Shown in pieces: positions 3,144-6,874 of a DNA stretch of 35,722 bases (position 1 is its first letter; each line of letters opens with the position of its first letter). Made by a program: the position numbers and the translations under genes. Under the pieces are notes generated by a model, which saw only the letters and a program-made list of their open reading frames with translations, ran no database searches and was not told the origin of the DNA. Where the stretch lies: the IMG/VR virus record IMGVR_UViG_3300048037_000106, positions 1 through 35,722 of that record. One strand, given 5' to 3'. This DNA is from a virus.

Positions 3144-3168
3144 AGAAAATGACCACCCCGAAGGATGG
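3138..3168 (-). terminator. Possible leftward intrinsic terminator or 5' UTR hairpin
   Basis: Reading leftward, CCATCC-TTCG-GGGTGG (3168-3153) forms a six-pair stem, including one G-T wobble, with a UUCG tetraloop. It is followed by a T-rich stretch including TTTTCTTTTAT (3149-3139). This would stop antisense transcription arriving from the replication genes before it reaches the leftward promoter. In the rightward RNA the same sequence is a weaker hairpin with one mismatch, which would cover the ATG at 3165. Confidence 0.35.
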
Positions 3169-3210
3169 CCAAGTTTAAAAAACAGAAACGTAACAAAGAC
3201 GGAGGTTCAT

Positions 3211-3264
3211 ATGTTACAAAAGCAGTATACCCTGTCACAAATTTTAGGACAAGGAAAAAATTAA
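3211..3264 (+). CDS. Short leader ORF, translationally coupled to the replication initiator
   Basis: This 17-codon ORF begins at an ATG preceded by GGAGGTTCAT, the same strong ribosome-binding sequence used by the genes at 3041, 8729 and 34334. It encodes MLQKQYTLSQILGQGKN. Its TAA stop at 3262-3264 shares one base with the ATG at 3264 that best fits the start of the replication initiator (TAATG junction). This is the arrangement of a coupled leader peptide: ribosomes that finish it can restart on the initiator. No function of the peptide itself is claimed. The good site and exact junction make translation likely. Confidence 0.5.
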   Translation: MLQKQYTLSQILGQGKN

Positions 3265-3953
3265 TGTCACATTATATGACTGCATTAGCAATGAAACAGA
3301 AAAACCTTAAACCTGCTACAAAGGTAGTTTTATACTGGATAGCCGACCATTATAATGATGATACAACCGCGTGTTTTCCAAGCCAAACAAGATTGGCTAA
3401 TTTATGTGAAATGACAAGAGCATCGGTTAATCACCACATAAACATTTTGAAGCAACAAAATATATTAAAAACAACGCAAAGGCACAGACCTGATGGTGGT
3501 AAATCTACCCTAGGATATGAACTTTTACTAGAAAATGATGATGTAAATTTATTGAATAAGGTATGTAAAAAGAATTTACAAGGGGATGTTAAAAAACTTG
3601 ATAACAAGAACCTTATAAATGGTAACCTTGTAAAACTAACAAATAGATATGACGAATACGATTTTACAGATTTTTGGGAAATGTATCCTAAGAAGGTAGG
3701 TAAAGGTGCGGCTAGAACATCATTTATCAAAGCACTCAAAAAAGTTCCCTATGATACTATTAAAAAGGCACTGGCTAATTTTATTGAAAAAACTGATGGG
3801 CAAGATAAACAGTTTATACCAAACCCCACAACTTGGTTAAATCAAGAAAGGTGGGACGATGAATATGTTGCTAGAATTACAACAACAGGTAATTATTTAG
3901 ATAATCTGTTTACTGAAAATGCTGACGTTAAAAAATTGGGAATTACAAAATGA
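3264..3953 (+). CDS. Replication initiator, HTH_36-type (lambda O-like role)
   Basis: Starting at 3264, the product has 229 residues. The first 70 form the winged-helix HTH_36 domain common in phage and plasmid replication proteins: LKPATKVVLYWIADHYND, then CFPSQTRLANLCEMTRASVNHHINILKQQNIL. A low-complexity linker follows, then a C-terminal domain with DFWEMYPKKVGKGAA and WLNQERWDD, seen in phage initiators of the lambda O type. An in-frame ATG at 3165 would add a basic 33-residue extension. I prefer 3264 because the domain normally begins near the start, AAGGA lies 8 bases upstream, and the leader ORF ends exactly there. It probably binds the origin and recruits the helicase loader. Confidence 0.82.
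   Translation: MSHYMTALAMKQKNLKPATKVVLYWIADHYNDDTTACFPSQTRLANLCEMTRASVNHHINILKQQNILKTTQRHRPDGGKSTLGYELLLENDDVNLLNKVCKKNLQGDVKKLDNKNLINGNLVKLTNRYDEYDFTDFWEMYPKKVGKGAARTSFIKALKKVPYDTIKKALANFIEKTDGQDKQFIPNPTTWLNQERWDDEYVARITTTGNYLDNLFTENADVKKLGITK
3556..3634 (+). other. Candidate replication origin inside the initiator gene
   Basis: The linker region of the initiator gene holds a cluster of related short sites: ATAAGGT (3556-3562), TTTACAAGG (3575-3583), CCTTATAAA (3611-3619) and AACCTTGTAAA (3624-3634). TTTACAAGG and CCTTGTAAA are perfect inverted copies, and the two CCTT(A/G)TAAA sites are direct copies 15 bases apart. The stretch is very AT-rich. Lambda carries its iterons at the same place in gene O. 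The sites also encode protein, so chance is possible. Confidence 0.35.
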
Positions 3954-4462
3954 TTTATCAGGAACGAAAGAATGTTATTTCAAAATGGCTTTTTGAGTTA
4001 TTAAAAAACTATGAAGTGCCGCCACATCTTGGCAAAGACCAAGTTAAAATAGAAATGATAAATATGGTAGAGGACATAAATAGCGAGTGTCCAAAGTGCA
4101 AAGAAAATGTTTTAAATCTTTTGCTAGAAAAATCTGCACAATATATTCGTAAAAATCAAAGTTCTAGGCGATGGCCTACTATTTCGATGTTTATCAAAGC
4201 AATAAAAGAGCACAGAGAAAATTTAATGGCAGAAGAAAAGCTAGATAAAATACCACTTTTGGCTGAAAAAGACGATTACGAACTTAATTTAAATGCCATG
4301 AGAATTAAGCAAAATAAAACAGTTGCTACATATTGGGTTATAGGTAATGGAGCGCAACGATTACTTGACAAAAATATGGTTTCAACAGAAGAATTAAAGG
4401 CATATAAAACATATTGCGAAAAGGTGTTATTACTCAATGTCGAAACAATGGCCTGCAACTAA
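3950..4462 (+). CDS. Hypothetical protein in helicase-loader position
   Basis: This 170-residue, mostly helical, charged protein has no nucleotide-binding motif or membrane segment. A CPKC pair sits near residue 48, and RRWPTISMFIKAIKE near 76-90 recalls the RWP(T/S)xxxFxxA segment found in some phage replication accessory proteins. It overlaps the initiator by 4 bases and the ParB-like gene by 26. Gene order suggests a replication accessory role such as delivering the host helicase, as lambda P does, but this is inference from position only. Confidence 0.5.
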   Translation: MIYQERKNVISKWLFELLKNYEVPPHLGKDQVKIEMINMVEDINSECPKCKENVLNLLLEKSAQYIRKNQSSRRWPTISMFIKAIKEHRENLMAEEKLDKIPLLAEKDDYELNLNAMRIKQNKTVATYWVIGNGAQRLLDKNMVSTEELKAYKTYCEKVLLLNVETMACN

Positions 4463-5096
4463 AATAAGTTTAGTAGATACAAATAAGTTAGTTCCATACG
4501 CAAGAAACAGCCGCAAACATAGCGAAGAACAAGTTACGCAACTAGCGGCAAGCATACAAGAATGGGGCTTTACGGTACCAATTTTAACAGACGAAGAAAA
4601 TACTATTATAGCAGGGCATGGTCGTTTGATGGCGGCACAAAAGCTAGAAATAGATAAAGTGCCTGTTATGGTTGCCAAGGGTTGGTCTGAAGCGCAAAAA
4701 CACGCATACGTTATTGCAGATAACAAGTTAACAGAAAATAGTACTTGGGACGAAGAGCTCTTAAAGGTAGAAATTAAGCAACTTGAATTTGATAAGTTTG
4801 ATATTTCTAAGCTTGGGTTTGGCTCTGATGAATTAGCAGATTTATTTCTTGACCGTGACTTTGGCGACACAGATGCGTTTAAAGAATGGGAAGATATGCC
4901 AGAGTACGATAATGACGCAATAAAATATTATTATTCAGTCAAGGTAAACTTTGATAATCAGGAAGATGTAGACGAATTTGCTAAAAAAACAGGTTTACCG
5001 CTTACCGAAAATACTAGAAGCATTAGATATCCAGAGCCTTTAAAAGAAGATTTAGACGCTTATAGGGTGCAAGGTACAGAAAGCGATGCTGCCTAA
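4437..5096 (+). CDS. ParB-like domain protein
   Basis: The product has 219 residues. Residues about 10-105 form a ParB N-terminal (ParB/sulfiredoxin) domain with PYARNSRKH (20-28), GFTVPIL (44-50) and the nucleotide-site motif IIAGHGRLMAA (57-67), then ADNKL. There is no HTH DNA-binding domain, so it is not a partition ParB. The C-terminal part has an acidic linker and an ED-VDEF-KTGLPLTENTRSIRYPE segment, which I know from phage ParB-domain proteins. Such proteins often sit beside DNA methylases or DNA-modifying genes; here the next gene is a TAGT glycosyltransferase, which it overlaps by 11 bases. A role in base modification or DNA handling is inferred. The ParB fold call is firm. Confidence 0.82.
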   Translation: MSKQWPATKISLVDTNKLVPYARNSRKHSEEQVTQLAASIQEWGFTVPILTDEENTIIAGHGRLMAAQKLEIDKVPVMVAKGWSEAQKHAYVIADNKLTENSTWDEELLKVEIKQLEFDKFDISKLGFGSDELADLFLDRDFGDTDAFKEWEDMPEYDNDAIKYYYSVKVNFDNQEDVDEFAKKTGLPLTENTRSIRYPEPLKEDLDAYRVQGTESDAA

Positions 5097-6000
5097 TTAT
5101 CCTTTGTACATTCCTAGTAAGGGTAGGTCACAATATATGATGACCTCAAAAGCACTTACCATGATGAAAGTGCCACATTATGTAGTTGTTGAGCCGCAAG
5201 AAATTGACGAATATCAAAAGGCAATTAAACACTGGGATTTGTTGTGTGACATTATTCCGTTAGATTTGTCATACAAAGAAAAATACGAGTTGTGTGACGA
5301 TTTAGGGTTAGAGCGAAGTACTGGACCCGGCCCTGCTAGAAATTTTGCTTGGGAACATAGTAAAGATAACGGATTTGCTTGGCATTGGGTTATGGATGAT
5401 AACATACGATACTTCCACAGATTTAATAAAAACCTACAAGTTAAAGTAACAGACGGCACTTGTTTTAAAGTCATGGAAGATTTTGTAAGCAAATATAGTA
5501 ACATTGGTATGGCAGGACCAAATTACATGATGTTTGCACCACGCAAGTCAAAATTAGCACCATTTGTGCTTAATACACGAATTTATAGCTGCAATTTAAT
5601 ACGAAATGAGCTAAGATTTAGATGGCGCGGTAGATACAACGAAGATACAATTATTTCGCTAGATATTATTAAAGCAGGGTGGTGTACAACTCAATTCAAT
5701 GCTTTTTTACAAGAAAAAACTAATACACAAGTTATGAAAGGCGGCAATACAGACGAATTTTACCATGTAGAAGGTAAAGTAAAAGAAGGTGAAAGATACG
5801 CTGATACTGGAACGCTAGATAAGTCAAAAATGCTTGTTAAAGTACACCCTGATTGTTCTAGGCTAGTTATGAAATACGGCAGATGGCACCACCATGTAGA
5901 TTATAACAGATTTAAGAAGCAAAAATTAATTAGAAATCCTGACGTTAAAATAAATAATGTAGATAAAGAATACGGCATGAAAATGGTGCGAATACGTTGA
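5086..6000 (+). CDS. TET-associated glycosyltransferase (TAGT) family protein
   Basis: This 304-residue protein shows the recurring landmarks of the phage TAGT family, which is related to the GREB1 C-terminal domain. They are YIPSKGR (8-14), VVVEPQE (33-39), GPGPARN (80-86), VMDDN (102-106, the DxD-like sugar-nucleotide and metal site), YNEDT (184-188), FNAFL (204-208), MKGGNTDE (217-224) and GRWHHHVDY (265-273). Family members glycosylate modified bases in phage DNA, classically hydroxymethylated cytosine made by TET/JBP oxygenases. No TET-like or hydroxymethylase gene is in this window, so the acceptor is unknown. The gene overlaps the ParB-like gene, and its TGA overlaps the TTG start of a cytidylyltransferase, suggesting one pathway. 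Confidence 0.82.
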   Translation: MLPNYPLYIPSKGRSQYMMTSKALTMMKVPHYVVVEPQEIDEYQKAIKHWDLLCDIIPLDLSYKEKYELCDDLGLERSTGPGPARNFAWEHSKDNGFAWHWVMDDNIRYFHRFNKNLQVKVTDGTCFKVMEDFVSKYSNIGMAGPNYMMFAPRKSKLAPFVLNTRIYSCNLIRNELRFRWRGRYNEDTIISLDIIKAGWCTTQFNAFLQEKTNTQVMKGGNTDEFYHVEGKVKEGERYADTGTLDKSKMLVKVHPDCSRLVMKYGRWHHHVDYNRFKKQKLIRNPDVKINNVDKEYGMKMVRIR

Positions 6001-6431
6001 TAGGTTTTACAGCATCAACTTTTGATTTACTCCACGCAGGGCATATTGCTATGTTATCAGAAGCCAAATCTGTTTGTAGTTATTTATTAGTTGGCTTGCA
6101 CGTTAACCCAAATGCAGAACGTGACCATAAAAACCAACCAATACAAACATTGGTAGAAAGATACACACAATTAAAAGCTGTTTCGTATGTAGATGAAATT
6201 ATACCATACCAAACAGAGCAAGATTTATTGGATATATTTAAAATGTACGAAATACAGGTTAGAATTATTGGTGAAGAATACAGAGACAAAGATTTTACTG
6301 GTAAAAACTTAGATATGCAAATTCACTATAATAAAAGAAGGCATGATTTTAGTTCAAGCCTTCTAAGAGAGCGCATAGTACACGCCGAAAAATATAAGCA
6401 CAAATCAAAGGTTACAGATATGAGCCGATGA
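5997..6431 (+). CDS. TagD-like cytidylyltransferase (nucleotidyltransferase fold)
   Basis: This 144-residue protein starts at TTG, overlapping the TGA of the TAGT gene (TTGA). It shows the nucleotidyltransferase signature FDLLHAGH with HxGH at 13-16, RYTQLKAVSYVDEI at 55-68, GEEYRDKDFTG at 92-102 and the C-terminal SSSLLRERI (119-127) that replaces the usual STS/TT-KI motif. This matches the glycerol-3-phosphate cytidylyltransferase (TagD) group, which makes CDP-activated alcohols from CTP. Beside a glycosyltransferase it may supply or process an activated donor for DNA decoration, though the substrate cannot be read from sequence. The 3' end overlaps the converging small gene by 27 bases. 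Confidence 0.85.
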   Translation: MIGFTASTFDLLHAGHIAMLSEAKSVCSYLLVGLHVNPNAERDHKNQPIQTLVERYTQLKAVSYVDEIIPYQTEQDLLDIFKMYEIQVRIIGEEYRDKDFTGKNLDMQIHYNKRRHDFSSSLLRERIVHAEKYKHKSKVTDMSR

Positions 6432-6629
6432 GTTATGTTCGTTTACCGCATAAACCATTGTGCGATTATCACCGAATTGCACACAATAATCCGCAACTTC
6501 TAGTTCTGTTTTACACTCATACCGAACACGGTTTTGACCACGACCGCGTACACAAACCCAATGCGTACGCTCTTCGTAAATTTTCTTTTCGTAGTCGGTT
6601 GAAAAATCTATTACGCTTTCACCAATCAT
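6405..6629 (-). CDS. Small hypothetical protein
   Basis: The start chosen is the ATG at 6629, just behind the upstream gene's stop (GGGGTTAATTATG), giving 74 residues. An in-frame ATG at 6671 would overlap that gene by about 40 bases. The protein has WVCVRGRGQNRVRYECKT in its middle, then a short acidic helix and a strand, suggesting a small alpha/beta domain. I do not recognise a family. It forms a two-gene leftward operon with the next gene and its end overlaps the cytidylyltransferase gene convergently. Confidence 0.55.
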   Translation of the reverse strand: MIGESVIDFSTDYEKKIYEERTHWVCVRGRGQNRVRYECKTELEVADYCVQFGDNRTMVYAVNEHNSSAHICNL

Positions 6630-6631
6630 AA

Positions 6632-6874
6632 TTAACCCCAATCTTTCTGATCGCCAATATCTCTGGCGCAACTGTAACCTGCATGGTATGTATCTATCTG
6701 TTCGTCAGTCATACCATTAATTTCAATACGTGGTGTCATACCAGTAGAACCAATATAGTAGTGTGGGTCACGAGGATAGCCGTAGTAAAAATCAGCCTGA
6801 CCTCTGTCAAATGGGTCACCATGGCGAACCAAGTAAGATTTACCATTCCAAGCTGCGTTTGAATATGTAGTCAT
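6632..6874 (-). CDS. Small conserved phage protein (DPFDRG type)
   Basis: This 80-residue protein contains DPFDRGQADFYYGYPRDPHYY at residues 20-40 and a C-terminal MTDEQIDTYHAGY segment. The pairing of a DPFDRGxADxYYxRPxDPH block with a TxxEIxAYxAGY tail is familiar to me from small proteins of marine phages, but no function is known. AGAGGTTCAAA precedes the ATG, the same ribosome-binding style as the other promoter-proximal genes. It is first behind the leftward composite promoter at 6904-6942, which implies early and strong expression. Confidence 0.65.
   Translation of the reverse strand: MTTYSNAAWNGKSYLVRHGDPFDRGQADFYYGYPRDPHYYIGSTGMTPRIEINGMTDEQIDTYHAGYSCARDIGDQKDWG

Follow-up and report, generated by a model that had tools for sequence, protein, structure and literature searches.

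The 35.7-kb virus record IMGVR_UViG_3300048037_000106 of IMG/VR derives from a marine virus infecting bacteria and was analysed over its whole length of 35,722 nucleotides (positions 1 to 35,722, here called the window). Upstream of its terminase it carries a cassette of three overlapping genes which probably constitutes a phage DNA-glycosylation module with a putative targeting subunit. This subunit joins a ParB_N domain to a conserved second domain, here named MPEF/TKSI, and is followed by a glycosyltransferase of the TAGT family and by a nucleotidyltransferase. The initial annotation, made from the sequence alone, had proposed the three genes as a candidate DNA hypermodification system possibly using a CDP-alditol donor; the system is well supported by its context (TAGT identity, ParB_N recurrence and gene fusions), the donor is not specifically supported. 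The features of the cassette are as follows:

4437-5096, plus strand: gene for the ParB_N and MPEF/TKSI protein (open reading frame, ORF; Pfam ParB_N PF02195)
4437..4880, plus strand: ParB_N (ParB/sulfiredoxin-fold) module, residues ~9-146 (PF02195; AlphaFold2 and Foldseek)
4880..5096, plus strand: MPEF/TKSI TAGT-partner domain, C-terminal module of the ParB gene (reciprocal profile matches; co-occurrence with TAGT)
5086-6000, plus strand: TAGT glycosyltransferase, 304 amino acids (Pfam PF20691)
5997-6431, plus strand: CTP_transf_like nucleotidyltransferase, TTG start, 144 amino acids (Pfam PF01467)

The last ~70 residues (~148-215) of the window ParB protein form the MPEF/TKSI domain (hereafter MPEF), with the pattern WxxMPxY ... 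FxxxEDVxxF ... LTxxTxSIxYP. No Pfam model matches it and it corresponds to PHROG 22103, where no function is assigned. Matches to MPEF lie in the N-terminal extensions carried by TAGTs of T4-like and Vibrio phages and in two standalone ORFs, from Aeromonas phage Aeh1 and Pectobacterium phage POP12, directly 3′ of the TAGT gene. Few distant members were found by tblastn with the MPEF tail alone, and a profile search was required. A hidden Markov model built from the ParB tails detects the Aeh1 TAGT extension at 6e-13, other extensions being weaker, and one built from the TAGT extensions detects the ParB tails at 4e-16 to 1e-12; overall, reciprocal matches between tails, extensions and standalone ORFs are mostly 1e-8 to 1e-16. 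Four formats of the domain were observed, namely the tail of a ParB protein, an ORF of 60-120 amino acids, the N-terminal TAGT extension of T4-like phages and one fusion of ParB, MPEF and TAGT. The latter, on a metagenome-assembled genome contig (locus L396), is a single polypeptide of 673 amino acids, the first ~180 residues of which are possibly spurious. In Vibrio phage henriette 12B8 (L037, 6636-7816) MPEF and TAGT are encoded by distinct ORFs, neither of them annotated. No fold is claimed for MPEF, as the AlphaFold2 model of the ParB protein has low confidence in this part (pLDDT ~60 at residues 141-160 and 201-210, pTM 0.55).

MPEF is a near-obligate partner of TAGT, and the association holds in both directions. 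In locus lists made up of the best 80, picked by conserved peptides, so that linkage rates apply to this clade and not to all TAGTs, 54 of 75 TAGTs (<92% identity) lie beside a protein with ParB_N and MPEF, 10 lie beside an MPEF protein without detectable ParB_N and six are fused to the domain. This amounts to 70 of 70 testable loci, the remaining 5 of the 75 ending <300 bp upstream. Where loci were selected by MPEF alone, a TAGT was present within 4 kb in 79 of 79 and was adjacent or overlapping in 66. The domain was found at none of 62 ParB loci without TAGT, and in bacterial genomes it accompanies 44 of 52 TAGT loci, most exceptions being contig fragments. From this context we read MPEF as providing the TAGT-specific coupling of a ParB_N adaptor.

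The middle gene product matches PF20691 (TAGT) with an E-value of 7e-39 and 134 bits (cut-off 27.5) over model positions 1-205 of 205. As the initial annotation had proposed, it is by its sequence a member of this family with intact motifs, and D104-D105-N106 (DDN), N185-E186-D187 (NED), R165, K211 and H268-H269 are invariant in 49 relatives. Its AlphaFold2 model has a pLDDT of 90, and the best Foldseek matches are GnT I and other GT-A enzymes (TM ~0.45). Because the model matches GT-A enzymes and these residues are invariant, the protein is most likely an active nucleotide-sugar-dependent transferase. In another phage (L182, 1901-4234) a TAGT and an SNF2-type helicase are joined in a single protein of 777 amino acids. 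Two tandem TAGTs follow one ParB-MPEF gene in L364 (6396-8912) and two in tandem are also present in Vibrio phage Kuja (L036), perhaps for the formation of a disaccharide. Other enzymes can be inserted between ParB-MPEF and TAGT, these being an S-adenosylmethionine (SAM) methyltransferase (L126, L129, L133, L190), a GT32 glycosyltransferase (L140, L141), an FkbM methyltransferase (L167) and a radical SAM/SPASM enzyme (L054, 6651-7754). These insertions are leads; they might serve to decorate the attached sugar or to prepare the base in another way, and the radical SAM/SPASM enzyme is a candidate source of other base or sugar chemistry.

The ParB_N domain of the first protein matches PF02195 with an E-value of 1e-7. 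The AlphaFold2 model of the module matches the N-domains of ParB and Noc (Foldseek E-value 1e-6), and Noc/ParB structures were also retrieved by sequence profile. No Pfam match to a helix-turn-helix (HTH, parS-binding) domain was found after ParB_N in the window protein. Its earlier description as a ParB fold without HTH therefore stands, with the correction that the second conserved domain (residues ~148-215) had been overlooked. Of the domains of a ParABS partition protein it has ParB_N; the HTH domain was not detected, and its C-terminal part is MPEF. Among phage proteins, its ParB_N module is closest to the N-terminal halves of ParB-DNA methyltransferase fusions, and members of this ParB_N subfamily mostly occur fused to phage DNA methylases, often just upstream of the terminase, an example being the N4/N6-methylase fusion of Vibrio phage 1.213.O. 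ParB_N without MPEF also occurs directly before Mom (Psychrobacter phage Y8A, L042; L085), TET/JBP dioxygenases (L067, 1372-2911, overlapping; L091, 798-2383), C5-methylases (L071, L072, L108) and a short TAGT (L076). In phage Y8A (3489-4746), ParB_N overlaps the Mom gene (PF25680, E-value 2e-55) upstream of the terminase, and this Mom gene was annotated as hypothetical by its authors.

Being repeatedly associated with N4/N6- and C5-methylases, Mom and TET/JBP, ParB_N points to DNA as the substrate, and from gene context we read it as an adaptor that serves phage DNA-modifying enzymes in general. The cassette shares with the phage ParB_N-methyltransferase fusions and ParB-Mom pairs the same ParB_N subfamily and its frequent position just upstream of the terminase. 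It differs from them in that its enzyme is a glycosyltransferase and that the MPEF tail is found on ParB only with a TAGT partner; no N4/N6-methylase was detected in 18 phages carrying ParB-MPEF-TAGT. ParB-like proteins are already known to serve DNA modification in the Dpd and Dnd systems (PMC12839542). DpdB and DndB likewise belong to the ParB superfamily, but these systems involve deazaguanine and phosphorothioate chemistry and no MPEF domain has been reported in them.

Targeted DNA glycosylation is thus supported by the MPEF-TAGT linkage, the ParB-MPEF-TAGT fusion, the SNF2 helicase fusion and the company kept by ParB_N. We infer a model in which the nucleotidyltransferase would charge a sugar phosphate, probably a sugar 1-phosphate, using CTP or ATP, and the GT-A fold TAGT would transfer the sugar onto a base in the phage DNA. 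ParB_N would contact the DNA, as it seemingly does for phage methylases, Mom and TET/JBP, with MPEF docking the TAGT onto the targeting subunit, and the resulting glycosylation may shield the phage DNA from host nucleases. Alternatively, the TAGT might glycosylate a virion or host protein, or RNA, with ParB merely co-transcribed. GT-A acceptors are diverse, the nearest Foldseek structures include a peptide xylosyltransferase besides GnT I, and in Vibrio phage 1.076.O the TAGT sits between portal and head genes. However, the near-obligate linkage, both fusions and the recurrence of ParB_N with Mom, TET/JBP and DNA methylases argue against such a role, which we consider very unlikely.

The product of the third gene matches PF01467 (CTP_transf_like, E-value 2e-14) and has the motif TFDLLHAGH, of the HxGH type. 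Its relatives in the PDB are ethanolamine-phosphate (E-value 2e-20) and glycerol-3-phosphate (E-value 8e-11) cytidylyltransferases, its C-terminal RRHDFSSS aligns as a partial match with the TagD signature RTEGISTT (alignment to 1coz), and it belongs to PHROG 7878, which is named after HldE. It had been placed in the TagD group of cytidylyltransferases; the likeness holds only at the superfamily level, and a CDP-alditol donor is not specifically supported. The cassette enzyme has the HxGH nucleotidyltransferase fold of TagD and of the HldE adenylyltransferase domain, whereas its relatives adjoin phosphomannomutase (PMM), phosphatase and epimerase genes and not teichoic acid genes. A PMM-like gene (PF03332, HAD) lies ~5 kb upstream in six relatives of the window (L011, L017, L022, L027, L028, L124). 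In L261 the order is PMM, nucleotidyltransferase, GT4 and MPEF-TAGT, in L312 it is PMM, nucleotidyltransferase, MPEF and TAGT, and in L104 (5794-8528) ParB_N, a fusion of histidine phosphatase and CTP_transf_like, and a distant TAGT all overlap.

These neighbours (PMM, phosphatase and nucleotide-sugar epimerase) favour a sugar-1-phosphate nucleotidyltransferase over a CDP-alditol enzyme, and the most likely reaction is the conversion of a sugar 1-phosphate into a nucleotide sugar, using CTP or ATP. The other possibility is that it makes CDP-glycerol or another CDP-alditol, from which TAGT moves a phospho-alditol to DNA; PF01467 and the PDB relatives agree with this, and host glycerol-3-phosphate would give a one-step pathway. 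In addition to the sugar-phosphate genes of the relatives, the fold of TAGT stands against it, since known CDP-glycerol transferases are GT-B enzymes and TAGT is GT-A, and we regard it as unlikely.

A nucleotidyltransferase of this type occurs near TAGT at 12 of 75 loci versus 0 of 62 ParB loci without TAGT (Fisher p 5e-4), or, with sequences clustered at 80% identity, in 6 of 60 groups. It may lie 3′ of TAGT, as in the window, 5′ of ParB (L156, L163, L175) or some kb away (L031, L164). It could nevertheless be a mere neighbour of TAGT with an unrelated role, for instance in the glycan metabolism of the virion or host surface. The 80 phage proteins closest to it come for the most part from other types of phage, with a PMM-like gene nearby in 32, an epimerase in 24 and a TAGT in only 4. 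As a general rule, a role as dedicated TAGT partner was rejected, 76 of the 80 being away from TAGT. The enrichment over the control loci tells against mere neighbourhood, as do the varied arrangements with TAGT, including the 4-bp overlap in the window and those of L104, L261 and L312, making this explanation rather doubtful. In Agathobaculum phage AB434P2 (L202, 1314-5582) a weak choline-kinase-like protein, the nucleotidyltransferase, an uncharacterised protein and a gene annotated as deoxyuridylate hydroxymethyltransferase (thymidylate-synthase family) form a row that is possibly a separate hypermodification operon. There the nucleotidyltransferase gene overlaps the one adjoining the annotated hydroxymethyltransferase, which also speaks against a mere neighbour and is a further hint of base modification.

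Several observations weigh against the DNA-glycosylation module as proposed. Most TAGT loci are without a nucleotidyltransferase and, because most relatives of this enzyme are in turn away from TAGT, donor supply appears to be a local add-on. The PMM-like gene was sought and not found on the window contig or its 99%-identical relatives. Across the window, 8 relatives and 20 more contigs, 29 in all and reaching 69 kb, no TET/JBP gene was detected by a search which did detect known positives; the thymidylate-synthase family gave 1 match in the 29 (none in the window and 8 relatives, 1 in the 20 further contigs), and neither a 2OG-Fe oxygenase nor Thy1 was found in 19 contigs. To our knowledge, every characterised TAGT-type DNA glycosyltransferase acts on an already oxidised base.

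The window itself gave no match to TET, the thymidylate-synthase family or C5- and N4/N6-methylases, and no C5-methylase was found in nine window-type contigs. The lack of TET/JBP, hydroxymethylase and DNA methylase genes in the window, which had been noted initially, is thereby confirmed, and that of acceptor-making enzymes extends to the whole clade. The window record and most contigs may be fragments; this weakens each single absence, the overall pattern less so. T4-like and other large phages whose TAGTs are close relatives (Kuja, henriette, PTm1, Aeh1 and POP12) do carry a thymidylate-synthase-family gene.

The TAGT may act on a conventional 5-hydroxymethyl- or 5-hydroxy-pyrimidine, the enzyme that makes it being outside the contig, too divergent or supplied by the host. 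The genes of the larger phages, which are possibly pyrimidine hydroxymethylases, and the fragmentary nature of many contigs are in its favour. On the other side stand the near-complete lack of such genes across the 29 contigs and Vibrio phages 1.076.O and 1.124.O, two ~47-kb sequences marked as partial, which have an MPEF-TAGT fusion and no thymidylate-synthase-family or TET gene. We regard this explanation as quite possible, though short of probable. As acceptor-making enzymes were not detected, either the small phages use another acceptor, or such an enzyme escaped detection or comes from the host; the acceptor would be a plain base or one changed beforehand by a host enzyme or by a phage enzyme that was not recognised. 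A more specific and somewhat improbable version of the DNA-glycosylation model is that TAGTs of this clade, guided by ParB-MPEF and with a donor from the phage nucleotidyltransferase, glycosylate a canonical base directly, for example at an exocyclic amine, with no prior hydroxymethylation or TET oxidation. By analogy, this would parallel the action of Mom on plain adenine, and the attachment point of the sugar may represent new chemistry.

Two further types of known system are close to the cassette. TET/JBP-TAGT hypermodification operons were reportedly predicted by Iyer et al. in 2013; these also have TAGT in compact phage loci, and ParB_N stands beside TET/JBP in other phages, but in the window clade TET/JBP was not detected and the constant partner is MPEF. 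PF20691 also includes the beta-glucosyl-HMC-alpha-glucosyltransferase of phages T2 and T6, which adds a second glucose to glucosyl-hydroxymethylcytosine (PMC13216743). This enzyme shares its Pfam family and GT-A fold class with the cassette TAGT. However, T6 glucosylates hydroxymethylcytosine that is already glucosylated, whereas no hydroxymethylase or first glucosyltransferase was detected with the cassette, and the cassette TAGT is linked to an MPEF-ParB adaptor. Judged by gene content, the cassette is neither a TET-TAGT operon nor a T-even hydroxymethylcytosine system, the defining enzymes of both having been searched for and not found.

The ORFs of the cassette and their overlaps of 11 bp (ParB and TAGT, 5086-5096) and 4 bp (TAGT and nucleotidyltransferase, 5997-6000) are as initially described. 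Overlap as such was rejected as evidence for a cassette, as the upstream genes 3165-3953 and 3950-4462 overlap likewise. The trio is kept in ~30 IMG/VR contigs at 72-100% amino-acid identity, the nucleotidyltransferase gene being missing at three of the relatives' loci (L023-L025), and in each of the three genes the divergence between the window and its relatives is 2.5-3.4 times lower at codon positions 1 and 2 than at position 3. This conservation and constraint indicate that the three genes are real. Directly after the cassette, two ORFs overlap on opposite strands, 6405-6671 (minus) and 6428-6631 (plus). The former (PHROG 21360, E-value 3e-6) is probably the actual gene, as it recurs in distant relatives and the latter is present in close relatives only. 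Other window genes, some of them assigned in a scan that combined the window with a 48-kb relative, encode an SU10-type portal, an adaptor and a capsid protein, as well as Erf, Gam/Gp157, SSB, RusA, NinB-like and O-like replication proteins.

A solitary TAGT of undefined role was reported in 288 of 753 glycosyltransferase-carrying phages (PMC13216743). No paper joining ParB with a glycosyltransferase in phage hypermodification was found in the open-licence literature, which is weak evidence of novelty, and the main text of the MetaGPA paper names neither ParB nor TAGT. With the present analysis, many relatives of these solitary TAGTs gain a constant partner in MPEF, a probable targeting module in ParB_N and, in some cases, a probable donor-making enzyme. 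This raises the sharp question of which base is glycosylated where an acceptor-making enzyme is not detected. Cassette-bearing prophages occur in cultured type strains, among them Rhodovulum euryhalinum DSM 4868 (L373), Chryseobacterium daeguense DSM 19388 (L375) and Marivivens donghaensis KCTC 42776 (L397), leaving the system open to direct testing; were the direct route true, DNA would be glycosylated in a novel way that might also be used to label it.

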